64,000 nucleotides of DNA from Arachidicoccus sp. (lineage in GTDB: Bacteria > Bacteroidota > Bacteroidia > Chitinophagales > Chitinophagaceae): positions 1 to 64,000 of the forward strand of contig JAPWKH010000031.1 in assembly GCA_028283605.1 (NCBI GenBank), written 5' to 3'. The translations under genes and the position numbers were made by a program. Each line of letters starts with the position of its first letter. The first letter of the stretch is position 1. Under the pieces are notes generated by a model. It saw nothing but the letters and a program-made list of their open reading frames with translations, searched no databases and had not been told where the DNA came from. Below are positions 1-55,069 of this stretch, piece by piece.

Positions 1-2663
1 TTATTGACTTCACTGAGCTCATCGATGCGGTTGTTGCCGTCAATGGTTACGATAATGTCGTTGTTGCCTGCATCGGTAGCGGCATTTATGGGTACATCCA
101 CCTGAACGGAATCCATAAATGCAATAGCGGCAATATTCTTGCTGACAAGCGTAACGATATTGCCGGAAGGCAGCTTTCTTTGTACCTGAACAAGTACCGA
201 ATCTTTAACGGCTTTACCAATATTATACAAATAAGCTTTGACGGAGAATTTGGCTTGCGTGGCAGATACAGACTGAGGCGCTATGATCTTTGCCGCCTCC
301 ACAGCAAAATCAGCCTTCGCAAAATGATACAACGATAACGACGGATCCCCAAAATATAATGTCTGTGCGGCATCTGCTAAGTAACTAATGTAATTTGTAG
401 AGGAAGATGTTCCATAATTAACCATCAATTGCTGGCTGGGAACCATACTGATGGTTATTGGCATTCCATAAAATTGACTTGCAAGTTTTTTATAAAAGAG
501 AGCATCATATAAATTTAAATATCCGTCAACGCCTAAAGCTGATTGAGACACAAAGGCTACACTACCCTTATCGGCACTAAAAATATATCTTTCTGTAATT
601 GTTTCTGAAGGGATATAATCAAAGCAATTTCCCAGGTTACATCCACTGGTAAATATTACGGGATATTTTCCCCCATTATCAAAATTATCCGGATCGGCTA
701 ATACAGTATATCCAATAGTGGTAGGAGCCCCGTGACCAAAATAACTGAGAAAGCTAAGCCCTTTTGTAAAAAGATCGTTTAAAGCACTATTGGGTGTCGT
801 ATTAAAAGAAGATGATGTATTTGAAAAATAATAACCAATGCCACCAAAGGCAGTATCGCTCATTGTTTTTTTGTAATTGTTTAAAAAACTGCCGAATGTA
901 GCGTCTTCAGATGTATTTGATGCCCCGCATACAAATACCATATTCTTTTTCCATAAGTTATTGTCAATGGTATAATCATTTGTATTCTGAGCTTGCTCAT
1001 AAGCTTTTACCTTAGCCAGATAAGTTCCTACTTGTTCGGAATTTACCGCAGGATATCGTCCGATAGGAGTTGTCATTATAGGAGAAAAATCATTTGATGC
1101 CAGCAACACATCTGATGCGGGATATCCGTAAGTGGGTATCAGTGCCTGTGCCTGATAATCTGCATTAGCGCCGGCAGCGCCGAAAGTATTATTAAACGTA
1201 AGGCCGTGCCCTATCAGAAAAGCAAATTTGGGCTTTACAGAAAAATTATTCCTTGCATAGCGTAAAAAGTTTTTGATGCTCAGAGGATGATTACGAATAC
1301 CGAAAGCAAACTGATCTTCCAAATCTTCGATATCGCATATTTTAGCATTGTAGCTGCCGCCGGCAGAGGAATTACGATATTGTTGATATTGCTGCACATA
1401 TCCGCCGCTGCCGTTAATAATAATTTTATGAGAGATAATTAAAAAATCGCCCTGGTTGGCACTGCTTCCATAATTTGTGAAGTTGCGCTGCGTTATTTGC
1501 GATGGATTAATAGAAGTATATGAATTTACAGATTGTGCGGCCATTACAAAGCTCGCAGAATCTTGAGAAGGCAGTAAAAATTCATAAGTACTGCCATTTA
1601 CTGCCGCAATATATCTTTGCCGGTGCGTAATATCATAAAGCACAGGCGTACTTCCATTTGCATTAAAATTAGTAATCTGCAAGCGCCGTTGAATGGCGCT
1701 TGATTTTAAATTAAAAGCAAAAGCGTTCTGCCCTCCGAAGTTAAATGTTCTCGGATAAGTCAGTGAAGCAAAAGAAACAATAGCTCTGTCATCAGAACTT
1801 GGAGCATTCGTTTCGCTGATTGTCGCACTCACATCTCCGGTTACCTTAAAATTATTGGCATTAAAAACCAATCCTTGAAACGCTCCTAATGATTGACTAT
1901 TGACAACAGTTCCGCCCGGATTAAGGCTTATCGTGATTTGTCTTTGAGTGCCTACATTAGCGTTGCCGGCAATACCCACAGATATTGTACTATTTATATT
2001 GCCTGCGGCGGTATAAGGAAATAAATTACTAAATGTTGTGGAAGTACTTGCGCCGGGAGAAATGGTAATACCATATGTTTTATACTGATAATCGGACATA
2101 TACACATATTCAGCTCCATTGTACGCATCTGCCGGGCCCATATTAAAAGTATTGCCTAAATTATTTTGAATAGTATAGAAAAAATAAGGCTCCGGCGCTA
2201 ATCCGTTCGGAATATTTGGCGCAGCATTATTATTATAAATGGCATTCGCGCCCATATTGGTATTAACTGTAAGAAAATAAGTAGCGCTATCTGTCTCAAG
2301 GCTTTGCAATTTATTAATCTGGTCATCCGGCTTCTGAAATAATTCAGCATCAGGAGAGCCGTCATTTTGTTGTCCCCAAAATTCTATATAATCATCGTTG
2401 CCTAAGGTTCCCAAGTTGTTTGCATATACAGGAACCTGTTGCCCGTTGTGCCAAAGCTGCAATTGCGAACCTTGTGCATTTATTCCAACGGAAGATAAAG
2501 TTTGTGCAGTGATTCTGTACAAGCCGTTGTTTAATATTTTAAACTTATAATAAGGCTTACCATAAACGATCCATTCGTTGTTATACGATTGAGCATACGC
2601 ACATGTTGCGGCTGTCAATAATAAAAACATCAGATAAATCGTATGGAATATTTTTCTTATCAT
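1..2663 (-). CDS. porU2: PorU2-like T9SS sortase, C25 gingipain family (3' end cut by window edge)
   Basis: The frame is open from the ATG at 2663 to base 1 (887 codons, no stop), so the C-terminus lies outside the window. A signal peptide ends near residue 24 (AYA-Q). A long beta-rich N-terminal part is followed by a peptidase C25 region. It has the expected catalytic pair: His644 in SYFGHGAP and Cys675 in FTSGCNLGN. The last visible 90 residues look like a CARDB-type domain ending in DGNNRIDELSEVN. PorU family members remove the C-terminal sorting signal of T9SS cargo at the cell surface. The CARDB domain after C25 and the PorV2-like neighbour 16 bp upstream favour the PorU2 branch over classical PorU; this is inference. 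The missing 3' part should show further repeats or a sorting domain. Confidence 0.75.
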   Translation of the reverse strand, partial: MIRKIFHTIYLMFLLLTAATCAYAQSYNNEWIVYGKPYYKFKILNNGLYRITAQTLSSVGINAQGSQLQLWHNGQQVPVYANNLGTLGNDDYIEFWGQQNDGSPDAELFQKPDDQINKLQSLETDSATYFLTVNTNMGANAIYNNNAAPNIPNGLAPEPYFFYTIQNNLGNTFNMGPADAYNGAEYVYMSDYQYKTYGITISPGASTSTTFSNLFPYTAAGNINSTISVGIAGNANVGTQRQITISLNPGGTVVNSQSLGAFQGLVFNANNFKVTGDVSATISETNAPSSDDRAIVSFASLTYPRTFNFGGQNAFAFNLKSSAIQRRLQITNFNANGSTPVLYDITHRQRYIAAVNGSTYEFLLPSQDSASFVMAAQSVNSYTSINPSQITQRNFTNYGSSANQGDFLIISHKIIINGSGGYVQQYQQYRNSSAGGSYNAKICDIEDLEDQFAFGIRNHPLSIKNFLRYARNNFSVKPKFAFLIGHGLTFNNTFGAAGANADYQAQALIPTYGYPASDVLLASNDFSPIMTTPIGRYPAVNSEQVGTYLAKVKAYEQAQNTNDYTIDNNLWKKNMVFVCGASNTSEDATFGSFLNNYKKTMSDTAFGGIGYYFSNTSSSFNTTPNSALNDLFTKGLSFLSYFGHGAPTTIGYTVLADPDNFDNGGKYPVIFTSGCNLGNCFDYIPSETITERYIFSADKGSVAFVSQSALGVDGYLNLYDALFYKKLASQFYGMPITISMVPSQQLMVNYGTSSSTNYISYLADAAQTLYFGDPSLSLYHFAKADFAVEAAKIIAPQSVSATQAKFSVKAYLYNIGKAVKDSVLVQVQRKLPSGNIVTLVSKNIAAIAFMDSVQVDVPINAATDAGNNDIIVTIDGNNRIDELSEVN

Positions 2664-2679
2664 GAAACGGTTCAATACA

Positions 2680-3807
2680 TTATTTTATAAAAGACAGTTT
2701 TTTAGATTTCTTTTCCAAATCCAAACGCAGCGAAAATACATGTGTATATAAAGAATTTGATTGATTGGCAAGATTTACGAATGCATAATCTATTATTACA
2801 TTTCCTATATGAAACCCCGCACCTATACTCGGCTGAAATATCCACTTCTTTTTTTGATTGGTAGAATCCGCATCCGAAATACCTTGTTGGAAATTGGAAA
2901 TGCCTCCACGGATAAATACTTTATCGGCAATGTTTGCTTCAAGACCGAGATTTGGGTCAATGCTTATGGGCTTGCTGCTGATAAGCGTATTTCTTTTTCC
3001 ATCAAAAGTTACGTGCAGGTTACTTTCTGCAAGCAAACTGAATTTTGGACTAAAAACAAAATTATATCCACCGCCGATAATCAGTCCCGGCTGTGTAATT
3101 TCCGTATGGCTTGATGGCACAATGTTACCTGCCAAAAGCAATTCTTCTTTTTCATCATCAGAGAAACTGTAACTCCAGCTATTGTATGTGGTGGTAATAT
3201 CTCTCGCCGTAACACCTACGCGCCATGTGGGCGTTACAGCCTGAAAACCGGCGTCAATGCCCAAGCCCCACGCGTGGCCAAAAGATCCGACACTCCTGTA
3301 AATAATTTTTACGTTGCCGCCAAAAGACATTTGTATGTCTTCAGTATTTTTCAATACTTGTCCGTATGACAAAAGAAAAGCATAATCGCTTGCGCTGAAA
3401 GATGAAATGTTGTTCCAGTTAAACTGGCCGCTTTGCGGGTCTACCAACGTCAATGTATTCGGAATATTATCCACACCAAAACGTAGTGCGGTAATCCCGA
3501 TCGTGCGTTTATCATCCTGCATGGGAATGGCTGCGGCAAAAAAATCATAACCCGCAATCCCGGAAAAATAATCGGCATGCATGACGGAAAATGTGGGCAC
3601 GTTTCTTATAAATGCAAGCCCGGCAGGATTCCAATATCCGGCAGTTGCATCGTTTACGGATGCAACCGTAGCATTCCCCATACTCATAGCACGCGCACCT
3701 GCGCCAATGTTTAAAAATTCATTGGTATAGGTATAAAATTGCGCCTCTATTTTTTGACAGAAACTAATGCTGAAGAAGAGTAAAAGGAATAATTTGTTTC
3801 GGTTCAT
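2680..3807 (-). CDS. porV2: PorV2-like outer membrane protein (PorV/PorQ family)
   Basis: A 375-residue protein with a signal peptide (cleavage near IEAQ, residue 22). The N-terminal pattern NEFLNIGAGARAMSMGNA, followed by ATAGYWNPAGL, is typical of the PorV/PorQ/UPF0164 beta-barrel family, which is related to FadL. In the T9SS, PorV binds cargo at the outer membrane and delivers it to the PorU sortase. This gene is the first of a two-gene minus-strand unit, with the PorU2-like gene starting 16 bp downstream, so the pair is likely co-transcribed. I favour PorV2 over PorV because of the partner; the distinction needs a family model. The barrel continues to the C-terminus, ending with a lysine-rich tail. 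Confidence 0.72.
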   Translation of the reverse strand: MNRNKLFLLLFFSISFCQKIEAQFYTYTNEFLNIGAGARAMSMGNATVASVNDATAGYWNPAGLAFIRNVPTFSVMHADYFSGIAGYDFFAAAIPMQDDKRTIGITALRFGVDNIPNTLTLVDPQSGQFNWNNISSFSASDYAFLLSYGQVLKNTEDIQMSFGGNVKIIYRSVGSFGHAWGLGIDAGFQAVTPTWRVGVTARDITTTYNSWSYSFSDDEKEELLLAGNIVPSSHTEITQPGLIIGGGYNFVFSPKFSLLAESNLHVTFDGKRNTLISSKPISIDPNLGLEANIADKVFIRGGISNFQQGISDADSTNQKKKWIFQPSIGAGFHIGNVIIDYAFVNLANQSNSLYTHVFSLRLDLEKKSKKLSFIK

Positions 3808-4161: not shown

Positions 4162-5388
4162 ATGAAAAGAATTTTTACATTCTTTGTATTTGTTTTATCA
4201 TTAATCAATGGCTTTAGTTTCTCACAAAATTATTATCCCATAACCTTTAGCAGCGGAATAAATAAAAATGTTATATGCCAGGGATCGGCAGCATCTACTA
4301 CACTTTTTGATAATAATATTTGTTCATTTTTTTATAATGGATATAAGGGTTTATCTAACGGATTGCCAACTTCGGGAAAATTAACAAGCAGTTCTTTTCC
4401 TTCTACCGACGGCTATTATCAGTTAATTACTACATTAAATGCGAATAATGCTTTGTGGATAAATGGCACAGCAACAAGTACGCTCGTTTTTAACACAGCC
4501 AATCAAGTTTCTTATAATAGTATATTCGTGCTCGCTGCTTATGCAAATGCGAATGGAAATAACGCAAGCTTTAGTTACCAAATCAATTACACAGACGGCA
4601 CATCAGAAGCTGCTGTGACAAAAACAATTTCAGACTGGACAATCGCCAATTCAACAAAAATAAAAGAAACGATTCACCGCGTTTGGGTGTCGAGCAATTC
4701 AGACGGAGGGCAAGTTTATATGTTTGACTATGCTATTGTTCCCAACAGTGCCGCAAAGAAAATAAAATCCGTCACTTTTAAAAATATTTCTGATGCTACA
4801 GGTTATTTCCCGGGGCAATTTGGCGTATTTGCCATTACAGGTTATATATCGTCTAACACAACTTTACCGGTAAAATACGGGGAAAAATTGTCTTGTACTT
4901 ATACCAATAAACAAATAAAATTAGAATGGACGACTACTTCAGAAATTAATAATAATTATTTTGATATCCAAAAGTTTGTCAATAATCAATGGGTGCCCAT
5001 CGGAAAAGTTAAGTCTGATATTACTTCCGGCAACGGCAGCAATTATTCTTTTACCGATCAAAATCCTGTAAATGGCAATAATCTTTATCGCTTAGTGCAG
5101 TTCGATTTAGACGGCAATTCAGAGATAAGCCCGACTGCTGCAATAAATGTAATCGGATTGACTGAAACCGTAAGTGTATATCCCAACCCTGCAAGCAATT
5201 ATTTATCCCTGTCTAATGTAAGCGCCGGCTCCATTATAAAAATCATTAATCTAAACGGAAGATCCGTATTAAATACCTTATACAATTCCGCAGCAATCAA
5301 TATCTGCTCGCTTCCTTCAGGCATTTATTTTATCCAGATTTCTGATAATAATCGTAAGATTAATACATTCAAATTTATAAAACAATAA
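4162..5388 (+). CDS. Secreted protein with type A T9SS C-terminal sorting domain
   Basis: A 408-residue protein with a signal peptide (GFSFSQ, residues 1-22). Its middle part is rich in Asn, Ser, Thr and Gly and I recognise no enzyme domain in it. Residues about 240-330 look like a fibronectin-like linker (NNYFDIQK, NLYRLVQFD) often found before the sorting domain. The last 75 residues are a type A sorting signal: VYPNPASNYLSL, then LNGR, LPSGIYFIQI and a basic end. The protein is therefore predicted to cross the outer membrane by the T9SS and be attached at the surface or released. It lies opposite the porV2/porU2 pair. The function of the passenger part is unknown. Confidence 0.85.
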   Translation: MKRIFTFFVFVLSLINGFSFSQNYYPITFSSGINKNVICQGSAASTTLFDNNICSFFYNGYKGLSNGLPTSGKLTSSSFPSTDGYYQLITTLNANNALWINGTATSTLVFNTANQVSYNSIFVLAAYANANGNNASFSYQINYTDGTSEAAVTKTISDWTIANSTKIKETIHRVWVSSNSDGGQVYMFDYAIVPNSAAKKIKSVTFKNISDATGYFPGQFGVFAITGYISSNTTLPVKYGEKLSCTYTNKQIKLEWTTTSEINNNYFDIQKFVNNQWVPIGKVKSDITSGNGSNYSFTDQNPVNGNNLYRLVQFDLDGNSEISPTAAINVIGLTETVSVYPNPASNYLSLSNVSAGSIIKIINLNGRSVLNTLYNSAAINICSLPSGIYFIQISDNNRKINTFKFIKQ

Positions 5389-52076: not shown

Positions 52077-53342
52077 ATGAAAATCAAACTCAGATTTTAT
52101 CACTTAATTTTTTGTTCGGCAATTATTGTGTTCATTGGCTGTAAAGCAAAATTGGGCGCCTCCGGCTCTGAAGACGGAATTGTACACGGTGCAAAATATG
52201 GCATTGCACCCAAAGGCATGGATCTGCCGTCAAATATGGTTTATATACCTACCGGTTCGTTTCAATTGGGAGCTAATGAAATCAGCCCGGTTTCCGGCGG
52301 CGGCAGTGTTTCGGTAAATGGTTTTTGGATGGACAAATACGAAGTTACCAATGCACAATACCACCAATTTGTAAATTGGGTACGCGATTCCTTAGCGGCA
52401 TTGCAATTGGGTTTTGTGCATATTACACAAGACGGCGACACTACAATCGATTGGGCTAAGGCCGGTAAAATAAACTACAAAGATTCTGTATTGCTTGGAA
52501 AACTTACCAATATAATGCTGCCTGCGGAAGAATTATTAAACCCGTCACGTCCAGAGATTGATCCCAGAAAATTAGTTTACCGGGCAAAAGGTTATGATTT
52601 TAATGCGGCTGCGCATCATCCAGGTCAACCGAGAAGAAACTTTTTTTATGAGTACACCATTCCTGTTTACCCTGATACGCTGGTATGGATAAAAGATTTC
52701 GATTACTCATATAACATTGCCATGGTTCGTGATTATTTTTCAAATGCATCTTATGCGCAGTATCCTGTAATAGGCGTTAACTGGCGGCAGGCATCGGCAT
52801 TTGCACATTGGCGTACCAATTATCTGAACCAATATTTAGGTAAGAAAAAATTAGCTATTGGAAATACTTACCGATTGCCTACCGAAGCCGAGTGGGAATA
52901 TGCAGCCCGCGGCGGCCATAATAATTTTCTTTATCCATGGGGAAATTATTTAAAAAACAATAAGGGTTGCATTATGGCTAATTTCAAAGAAGGGAAAGGA
53001 AATTATACCGATGATGAAGCATTATATCCGGCGAGGGTAGATTCCTATTTTCCAAATGATTATGGCTTATATAATATGTCCGGCAATGTTGCGGAATGGA
53101 CAGGTACGAATTTTATAAACGGCTATCAGGCGTATGATAATGATTTTAATCCAAACATCACTATAAATGCTACTGATGCAGATGCATTGGATATGAAAAG
53201 AAAAACTGTTCGCGGCGGCAGCTGGAAAGATCCTGCGAAAGATATCCGTGTTAATTCGAGAAATTTTGAATATATGGATTCTGCGCGTTCTTATATCGGA
53301 TTTCGCTGCGTGATAGATATTCCACCGGCAACTAAAAAATAA
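52077..53342 (+). CDS. gldK: T9SS ring lipoprotein GldK/PorK
   Basis: A 421-residue lipoprotein (Cys22 in VFIGCKAKLG). The formylglycine-enzyme (SUMF1) fold is clear: NMVYIPTGSFQLGANE, FWMDKYEVTNAQYHQFVNW, YRLPTEAEWEYAARGG, GNVAEWTG and RGGSWKD. The PDTLVWIKDFDYSYN and YPVIGVNWRQASAFAHWRTN stretches match GldK/PorK better than GldJ. With GldN it forms the large periplasmic ring under the outer membrane in type IX secretion. It is 115 bp before gldN; gldL and gldM are missing between them. Confidence 0.82.
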   Translation: MKIKLRFYHLIFCSAIIVFIGCKAKLGASGSEDGIVHGAKYGIAPKGMDLPSNMVYIPTGSFQLGANEISPVSGGGSVSVNGFWMDKYEVTNAQYHQFVNWVRDSLAALQLGFVHITQDGDTTIDWAKAGKINYKDSVLLGKLTNIMLPAEELLNPSRPEIDPRKLVYRAKGYDFNAAAHHPGQPRRNFFYEYTIPVYPDTLVWIKDFDYSYNIAMVRDYFSNASYAQYPVIGVNWRQASAFAHWRTNYLNQYLGKKKLAIGNTYRLPTEAEWEYAARGGHNNFLYPWGNYLKNNKGCIMANFKEGKGNYTDDEALYPARVDSYFPNDYGLYNMSGNVAEWTGTNFINGYQAYDNDFNPNITINATDADALDMKRKTVRGGSWKDPAKDIRVNSRNFEYMDSARSYIGFRCVIDIPPATKK

Positions 53343-53457
53343 GAAATACAATACCGGGAAAACGCAATACAAATTTTTAAAAACAACGGAAAATATCTAA
53401 TACGTACTCCATTCGCCCGAAAGATTCGCGACAGCCGCAAATGCAAAATTTATACGA

Positions 53458-54495
53458 ATGAAAAAATGGTTTTTATATAAAAAAATATATTTGGTACTGG
53501 CGGGAACGGTTTGTATTTCTTATGCCGATAGCCAAATACGGCATAGGGCTGATTCTGCTAATAATTCGAAGTTGGCCGGCAATTTTTATTCGCAAGGCAA
53601 AGCCGATAGTTTGCCGATTAAATACATTCAGGATAATACAATTTCTCAGGGTAAATTATCCTTACGAAACGATTTCCCCTATGAGCAAGCGCCGTATTAC
53701 CAGCAAAGCAATGCTTTAAATTATCCGCATGTGCGCCAGGAAGATATTGCATACAGCATTCGGATTTGGGAAGATGTAGATACCCGCAAACCCGGCAATC
53801 GAAATATGATGTATGCCATAGACGACAGAGGTAGCAAGTCTTTGATTCAAATCATGCTGGAAGCCATTCGCAACAATCAATTAACCGCTTTCGATGCGCA
53901 GGATGACAGGTTTACGACACCGCTCACACCGCAGCAGGTAAGAGATGCCGTAGGCAGCGGGATGGATACTTCTGCTATTTTGGATTTAGACGGAAATATT
54001 ACCGGCTACCAAGTAAGGAACAAGACTATTGATTTGGATTCTATATATACTTACCGTTTAAAAGAAGACTGGTTTTACGATAAAAATTATGGCCGTATGA
54101 TGGTTCGTATTATCGGTATTGCGCCTGTAATGCCTTTCATACTTTCTACCGGTGACATAATTCCAAACAGCGAACATGCTGTTTTCTGGCTTTATTTCCC
54201 CGATCTACGTTCCATACTTACAAAATACAAAGCATATAATATGCAGGAACCGGGAACAAAAATTCCTTTTGATGAATTATTTGATTTAGGGCAGTTCAAA
54301 GGAAAAATCATAAAATCAAATTATGAAAATCCGGGAGAAATCAATTGGAATAATTTAATGCCGGATCCTGAAGATCAGCAAAAAACCATTGAAGAAATTC
54401 GTAAGCAATTGAGTGAATATGGTAATGACAACTATGATATGATCTCTCAGGAAACGCCTTCCAAACATTCTAAAAAAAGCAAGAAAAGCAAATAG
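53458..54495 (+). CDS. gldN: T9SS ring protein GldN/PorN
   Basis: A 345-residue protein with a probable signal peptide (about residue 25, ISYADSQ). VRQEDIAYSIRIWEDVDTRKPGN is followed by YRLKEDWFYDKNYGRMMVRIIGIAP and AVFWLYFPDLRSIL, which are the recurring marks of GldN/PorN. The C-terminal tail is Lys/Ser-rich (KHSKKSKKSK). GldN binds GldK to form the periplasmic ring and touches GldM of the motor. Here it directly follows gldK. Both genes are probably co-transcribed, and a terminator lies 67 bp after the stop codon. Confidence 0.85.
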   Translation: MKKWFLYKKIYLVLAGTVCISYADSQIRHRADSANNSKLAGNFYSQGKADSLPIKYIQDNTISQGKLSLRNDFPYEQAPYYQQSNALNYPHVRQEDIAYSIRIWEDVDTRKPGNRNMMYAIDDRGSKSLIQIMLEAIRNNQLTAFDAQDDRFTTPLTPQQVRDAVGSGMDTSAILDLDGNITGYQVRNKTIDLDSIYTYRLKEDWFYDKNYGRMMVRIIGIAPVMPFILSTGDIIPNSEHAVFWLYFPDLRSILTKYKAYNMQEPGTKIPFDELFDLGQFKGKIIKSNYENPGEINWNNLMPDPEDQQKTIEEIRKQLSEYGNDNYDMISQETPSKHSKKSKKSK

Positions 54496-54562: not shown

Positions 54563-54587
54563 AAAAAAGCGCTTGAGGCGCTTTTTT
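54563..54587. terminator. Bidirectional terminator between gldN and the oxidase operon
   Basis: A 10-bp stem (AAAAAAGCGC/GCGCTTTTTT; 54563-54572 with 54578-54587) with a 5-nt loop works for both convergent units. Confidence 0.85.
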
Positions 54588-54592
54588 ATCAA

Positions 54593-55069
54593 TTATTGTT
54601 GCTGCGGTTGTGCAGGTTTTTCTTCAGGTTTAATTTCTTTCTTTTCTCCTTGCTCTTCGTGTTTTGGCATAGGTAACTGATATAATTCTGTTTTATACGG
54701 ATCGTATTTTTCACGAAGGTGCTTGTATGAACTTCCATCCGCTAAAAATGCAATTATAAACCATATAAAGAAAGTTGCAGGCAGTCCTATTACCAAAATC
54801 ATATTACGCACTTCATGCCTAAGGTGCATAAAATAACCGATAATGTAAAATGCTTTCCAGAACATTAGTATCAAAATGATACCTTTTACAAAATGTCTTT
54901 TGAAACTTTCTTCTTCCCATCCCATCATTACAAAACCTAAAATTAACTCTACAATAGTCAGAATTGTAAGATAGATAGTTACTTTCCAAATTTCTTTACG
55001 TACTGCTTTTGAATCAAACGCATGTGCGTGCGTATGTCCTCCGTTTTCCAATTCATGTAAGTCAGCCAT
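54593..55069 (-). CDS. Cytochrome c oxidase subunit IV family protein
   Basis: A 158-residue protein. A His-rich start (GGHTHAHAF) is followed by three membrane segments between about 28 and 110 (IYLTILTIVELILGFVMM, GIILILMFWKAFYIIGYFMHL, MILVIGLPATFFIWFIIAFLA). The tail is rich in Pro, Glu and Gln. This matches the prokaryotic COX4 subunits that stabilise the oxidase. It is the last gene of the respiratory operon and ends 6 bp from a strong terminator. Confidence 0.88.
   Translation of the reverse strand: MADLHELENGGHTHAHAFDSKAVRKEIWKVTIYLTILTIVELILGFVMMGWEEESFKRHFVKGIILILMFWKAFYIIGYFMHLRHEVRNMILVIGLPATFFIWFIIAFLADGSSYKHLREKYDPYKTELYQLPMPKHEEQGEKKEIKPEEKPAQPQQQ

Follow-up and report, generated by a model that had tools for sequence, protein, structure and literature searches.

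A gldK-gldN pair apart from gldL and gldM in Arachidicoccus and the possibility of one motor serving two type IX secretion rings

Introduction

The ring and motor genes of the type IX secretion system (T9SS) usually occur in the order gldK-gldL-gldM-gldN, and the two parts are normally regarded as a single unit. The closest described counterparts of the locus analysed here are the PorKN ring of P. gingivalis and the GldK-GldN ring of F. johnsoniae. PorK Cys356 and GldK Cys343 form a disulfide bond with PorG, and in F. johnsoniae also with SprF; the accessible part of the same report calls this cysteine completely invariant in GldK/PorK (PMC12635249). On the motor side, PorM contacts PorN, according to the accessible text of PMC12421860. 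F. johnsoniae also has GldO, a GldN paralogue encoded beside gldN and described in the available portion of PMC9127263 as partly redundant with it. The Cardinium endosymbiont cSfur has four retained gldKLMN genes, and sprA, sprE and sprT are given as not identified in the part of PMC6147030 that was available. A literature search, mostly at the level of titles and listings, found neither a separate gldK-gldN pair without gldL/gldM nor a GldK without the PorG-bonding ("tether") cysteine. Of 395 records in a plasmid collection, the 20 listed included no Cardinium GldK.

The locus lies in a 64,000-nucleotide stretch of an Arachidicoccus genome (G000), referred to as the window. Its separate gldK-gldN pair is designated gldK2-gldN2 or K2N2, and the copies of the gldKLMN operon are designated K1 and N1. 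Like the PorKN and GldK-GldN rings, K2 and N2 score above the family cut-offs, and K2 conserves the lipobox and the PorG-bonding cysteine; unlike those rings, they are encoded as a separate pair away from gldL/gldM. K2N2 resembles GldO as an additional ring-subunit copy without motor genes of its own; GldO, however, consists of one gene adjoining gldN, and K2N2 of a gldK and a gldN at a locus of their own. The Cardinium operon is comparable to three genomes described below (G116, G022 and G119) in having gldKLMN without SprA, and differs in being reported, in the same part of PMC6147030, as four retained genes.

The gldK2-gldN2 pair

The gldK2 gene (52077..53342, + strand) is an intact reading frame encoding a predicted ring lipoprotein of 421 aa. 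The protein scored 463.7 bits against NCBIfam TIGR03525 (cut-off 350) and 174 bits against Pfam PF03781 (FGE-sulfatase), and its closest sequence match in the PDB is PorK (9mzu, E 1.3e-79). The gldN2 gene (53458..54495, + strand) is also intact and encodes a ring subunit of 345 aa that scored 124.6 bits against TIGR03523 (cut-off 85.9) and 188.6 bits against Pfam PF19841 (GldN), with a match to PorN in the PDB at E 3.1e-6. These family models place K2 in GldK/PorK and N2 in GldN/PorN; the earlier note had named assignment to other families as a result that would overturn its reading, and no such assignment emerged. The 115-bp interval between the genes (53343..53457) was translated in six frames and, judged by eye, holds no remnant of gldL or gldM. 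The two complete genes thus lie as close together as first noticed, and with neither gldL nor gldM between them the pair is not a gldKLMN operon. Further window ORFs of at least 60 aa gave no match to our own K, L, M and N profiles.

Two cysteines of GldK2 are relevant to attachment. A pattern rule identifies Cys22, in the motif FIGC (52140..52142, + strand), as the lipobox cysteine, for which lipidation is predicted. Cys298 (52968..52970, + strand) aligns with PorK Cys356 in a phmmer alignment and is the predicted tether cysteine, bonding again being a prediction. A structure prediction for GldK2 based on 5 sequences was too poor (mean pLDDT 34.5), and the single-chain model was left unused.

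Upstream of gldK2 is an ORF weakly similar to YitT-type families, preceded by gcvP. Downstream of gldN2 are convergent genes, of which the first has no family assignment and the second encodes a cytochrome oxidase subunit III-like protein. A terminator-like hairpin (54563..54587) separates gldN2 from the convergent gene at 54593-55069; the pattern scan reported it on the - strand, as a consensus match only.

Other T9SS genes in the window and its genome

At the left end of the window a PorU-like protein (3..2675, - strand) is cut by the contig end, leaving its N-terminal part up to about residue 888. The gene leaves the window contig (C8) and appears to resume on contig C4 after about 290 missing codons; C4 probably carries the C-terminal part, and that the pieces are a single gene is suggested by their complementary residues. 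The C4 piece (L048, 1-1710) is spread over three frames and is followed by a gene named by eye as RNase R. A second PorU-like ORF, on C30, runs uninterrupted for 1681 aa. The PorU-like assignments on C8/C4 and C30 are by similarity to a protein of the congener G149. In G149 the gldKLMN operon adjoins porU-porV2, from which came the idea that an operon might be hidden in the gap at the window's left edge; it was rejected, as the remainder of porU appears on C4, followed by RNase R.

Next to the PorU-like gene are a PorV2-type T9SS protein, PorVQ2 (2680..3807, - strand; NF052325, 465.5 bits, cut-off 325), and a predicted T9SS cargo with a type A sorting domain (4162..5388, + strand; TIGR04183, 50.6 bits, cut-off 23). 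The genome also encodes a PorG (143.2 bits, cut-off 130). PorG, PorU, a PorV-type protein and a cargo with a C-terminal sorting domain, as expected of a T9SS, are thus all found in G000. SprA gave two above-cut-off matches on C14, of 1909.6 and 307.9 bits, in an interrupted reading frame. The gene (L239, C14:26000-40000) runs through several frames, and the interruption that was inspected sits at a homopolymer run, a frequent site of sequencing errors. The interruption may be a sequencing error or decay; SprA is split over two frames also in the single-contig genome G147.

Congeners and the two loci

The genus sample comprised six genomes, G000 and five congeners. All five congeners (5/6 genus genomes) carry a gldKLMN operon, in the order ade-gldK1-L-M-N1-porG1. 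An extra gldK-gldN pair is present in four of the five, G116 being the exception, and K2N2 accordingly occurs in 5/6 genus genomes. No gldL/gldM-like ORF was found within the 18 kb read around the extra pair in these four congeners. The window GldK has 73-79% identity to that of the congeners' extra pair and 38-42% to the operon copies; for GldN the corresponding values are 58-71% and 35-42%. Judged by these identities, the window pair is orthologous to the congeners' extra pair and not to the operon copies. The GldK values also led to the rejection of K2N2 as the scar of a local gldLM deletion.

The spacing between K and N is short in all five K2N2 pairs; as annotated, the frames overlap slightly in two, where the GldN starts are uncertain. 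A tatA-like gene lies directly downstream of the extra pair in 4/4 congeners (two confirmed by model), and groEL/groES, named by eye, adjoin it in three of the four.

Outside the genus, each of 79 other genera has at least one GldN, and at the loci inspected in them gldL or gldM lies beside each intact gldK. A split gldK-gldN pair was seen inside this genus only, in congeners always as an additional copy. GldK copies were counted genome-wide in G000 only; a scan of genome contigs for GldK2 with two peptide patterns, of which the best 80 of 121 loci were mostly distant FGE-like proteins, is no census of K2.

These comparisons bear on several proposals of the earlier note. The idea of a second ring-only cassette finds support at the level of the genus, where four of the five congeners have K2N2 in addition to a complete gldKLMN operon. 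The suggestion that the pair makes a variant ring has to be reversed, the variant being the operon copy K1 and not the window pair. The note had also held that a single gldK and gldN here, with a split universal among relatives, would speak against its proposal; the pair is single in G000, but the split was seen in no other genus and is an extra copy in the congeners.

Lipid anchor, tether cysteine and PorG

The attachment features were compared in 48 hand-chosen, non-random GldK sequences, with a K1 set of seven (five congeners, G022 and G119). The tether cysteine is present in 5/5 K2 and in 32/32 ordinary operon GldK of the family, among which G113 and G014 are near-identical, and in 0/7 K1 and 0/4 second-operon copies. 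The lipobox, by a strict pattern rule, was found in all five K2, 28 of the 32 ordinary GldK, none of the seven K1 and one of the four second-operon copies. Among the four ordinary GldK without a rule-based lipobox, one is a truncated ORF, and those of G070 and G096 show by eye a Ser-Cys after a hydrophobic stretch. All seven K1 proteins lie above the cut-off of the GldK model (350), at 350.2 to 398.4 bits.

The PorG proteins show a matching distribution of cysteines. In all seven cases the mature C-terminal part of the PorG encoded next to N1 is free of cysteine, and these proteins score 55-90 bits, below the cut-off of 130 for PorG. PorG2, which is above the cut-off, has a C-terminal CxC in 5/5 genomes, the window genome included; PorG3, below the cut-off, has it in the four inspected.

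Two metagenome-assembled genomes encode a GldK without tether cysteine and lipobox (L054, 7857-9149; L055, 7872-9161); with these counted, the cysteine is present in 32/34 ordinary operon GldK. Both proteins, at 460.5-472 bits, are above the GldK cut-off, and in L055 GldK is followed by GldM (269.6 bits). A quick tree places them beside G087 and apart from K1 (SH-aLRT 97). Second-type gldKLMN operons (L023, L197, L198 and L260) in G050, G062, G089 and G097 have a GldK clade of their own without the tether cysteine. They share the missing cysteine with K1, but fall in a clade apart and come with GldL and GldM of their own. G097 also has several GldN-family genes of 219-379 aa (L257, L258 and L259), two in tandem on C16 and that of L258 at a contig end; no gldK, gldL or gldM was found near these extra genes in the stretches read.

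Co-occurrence with SprA

SprA matches were found in five of the six genus genomes. G116, which has a single GldN of N1 type, gave none. In the family, 78 of 80 genomes (79 genera) have SprA matches, the exceptions, G022 and G119, being members of the same genus. The GldK of both is of K1 type, without lipobox and tether cysteine; G022 has one GldN match, and G119 was outside the GldN search. Each of the three genomes in which SprA went undetected thus has a K1-type operon, motor included. K2N2 co-occurs with SprA and a CxC-ending PorG in 5/5 genomes. Of the 32 cysteine-bearing ordinary GldK, 29 come from genomes searched for SprA, all of them SprA-positive; G032, G046 and G113 were outside that search.

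Trees

When the distant second-operon copies are left out of the GldK tree, K1 groups with K2 in a single clade (100/97); the nearest neighbour of this clade is G067, a single-GldN genome (100/99). A topology that joins K2 to G067 alone is disfavoured (p-AU 0.025). The GldM of the K1 operon is placed beside G067 GldM on short branches (SH-aLRT 98) in a quick tree of 6/7 operons. When the distant second-operon copies are included, K1 falls outside K2 and the family; in the GldN tree, N2 groups with G067 (98/94) and N1 is beside them. K1, N1 and N2 have long branches. With the GldK tree that includes distant copies and the GldN tree, any order of the duplication is tentative. The GldK tree without distant copies and the GldM tree agree with a duplication of the ring genes specific to this lineage and a motor inherited in the ordinary way.

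Search for the motor in the window genome

The G000 assembly is a draft of 3.59 Mb in 35 contigs with an estimated completeness of 98.9%. Whole-genome profile searches found one GldK and one GldN above the cut-offs; the best GldL match reached 11.1 bits (cut-off 68.3), and GldM had no match at E<=10. The GldM model matches 145/147 family genomes and 129/130 of those at least 90% complete, G000 being the sole genome of the 130 without a match. The GldL model works in the genus, because GldL proteins of three congeners pass the cut-off at 77-81 bits. A GldL-GldM motor, as expected of a T9SS, was thus absent from G000, a provisional result in a draft assembly. The earlier supposition that the cell keeps its motor genes elsewhere holds for the congeners; it fails for the G000 assembly, where neither gene was found, perhaps owing to an assembly gap.

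The gene upstream of the operon gldK in congeners, the adenine deaminase gene ade (a model match in G149, by eye in the other four), had no match in G000 either, in a search without a positive control. No fragment of gldL, gldM, gldN1 or ade was found at 69/70 contig ends, each read for 6 kb or over the whole of a short contig; the survey left out the last 442 bp of C27. Its sole K1 match was an FGE-like protein of C17, which was rejected as another GldK (92.4 and 30.2 bits, cut-off 350), and its sole PorG match was PorG3 near an end of C10.

The GC content of contig ends in G000 ranges from about 0.31 to 0.67 among C9, C10, C13, C16, C18, C25 and C31, with 0.62-0.65 in C18, 0.60 and 0.35 in C10, and 0.36 and 0.67 in C31. 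These differences suggest that contigs are chimeric or contain foreign, contaminating DNA. Contigs also break in or beside gldKLMN/gldN in drafts of other genera: G042 (L263/L265), where one contig ends with GldK-L-M and another begins with GldN, G041 (L269/L270), with GldN split, G097 (L258) and G089 (L261). Single-gene absences in those drafts need caution, because the breaks fall at these genes.

Discussion

Both loss and assembly omission of the motor operon are possible in G000. It is moderately likely that ade-gldK1-L-M-N1-porG1 is present in the cell and dropped out of the data through an assembly gap or during binning: every congener has the operon, the neighbouring ade is likewise unmatched (the search lacking a positive control), the contig ends of C18, C10 and C31 differ strongly in GC, and contigs break at gldKLMN in G042 and G041. 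An omission has to be reconciled with the high estimated completeness, with the 69/70 contig ends read, none of which held a fragment of gldK1, gldL, gldM, gldN1 or ade (the PorG-like match of C10 being PorG3), and with a left-edge gap that appears to lie inside porU, RNase R coming next on C4. A true loss, with K2N2, SprA, PorG and PorU as remnants of a decaying T9SS, would explain why no gldL or gldM was found and why SprA runs over several frames and the C4 PorU piece over three; it is rather doubtful, given open frames in K2, N2, PorG2, PorG3, the 1681-aa PorU-like ORF and the sorting-domain cargo, an inspected SprA break at a homopolymer run, and a split SprA in single-contig G147 as well.

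For the genus, we consider it probable that K2N2 is a ring-only pair that arose by duplication of gldK and gldN, that GldLM drives both rings, and that K2N2 serves SprA while K1N1 is SprA-independent. The pair and its recurrence in the genus, the distribution of cysteine and lipobox, the co-occurrence with SprA and a CxC-ending PorG, and the trees are the sequence observations behind this reading. The duplication giving rise to gldK2-gldN2 would have occurred in a lineage comprising Arachidicoccus and a sister genus. K2N2 would form a T9SS ring anchored at the outer membrane, K2 being a predicted lipoprotein with the PorG-bonding cysteine; this ring would bond PorG2/PorG3 and work with the SprA translocon. 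GldLM, encoded in gldK1-L-M-N1-porG1 of the congeners, would drive it in trans. As PorM contacts PorN, this scheme would require a GldM contact from N1 as well as from N2. K1 is without lipid anchor and tether cysteine, and ring 1 therefore probably no longer serves the SprA translocon; an untethered K1N1 may have some role independent of SprA. Motor sharing is not demonstrable in G000 itself, because no gldL/gldM was found there, and the SprA frame of this genome is interrupted. Several observations count against the reading: L054 and L055 are without the cysteine in a seemingly ordinary operon, K2N2 and SprA are jointly absent in two lineages only (G116, and the genus of G022 and G119), and K1 and N2 change place in the GldK tree with distant copies and in the GldN tree.

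That some other, unrecognised motor turns K2N2, as the earlier note had allowed, could be drawn from a genome with ring, translocon and PorG and no recognised GldLM. No evidence for such a motor was found, and it is highly improbable: GldL and GldM are encoded in all four congeners with K2N2, and GldL/GldM-like ORFs are absent both from the 18 kb around the pair in these four and from the window. A mixed hetero-ring of K1/K2 and N1/N2, or redundant copies as in the partial GldN/GldO redundancy of F. johnsoniae (PMC9127263, in the portion available), is unlikely. In its favour, the pairs are of the same families and four congeners retain the two of them; against it, K1 and K2 are told apart throughout by two attachment features, and in G116 and G022 K1LMN1 persists with no second GldN. 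The reading with one motor and two rings can be taken further, tentatively, to a motor-driven periplasmic K1N1 machine without SprA beside K2N2 as the secretion ring, one GldLM for both, with the cysteine as the mark of secretion rings and L054/L055 as a second, independent case. Depending on whether SprA is present in their genomes, L054/L055 may support or oppose the two-ring model.

Classed as a GldK by the model of NCBI itself, K1 is a counter-example to the complete invariance of the PorG-bonding cysteine stated in the accessible part of PMC12635249. The two SprA-less lineages keep the motor operon and no cysteine-bearing ring was found in them; a function of GldKLMN apart from secretion therefore becomes testable. 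A genus with duplicated ring genes, and the motor once in the congeners' read loci, amounts to a natural separation of two roles, and ring genes standing separate from motor genes suggest that one motor may serve two rings.
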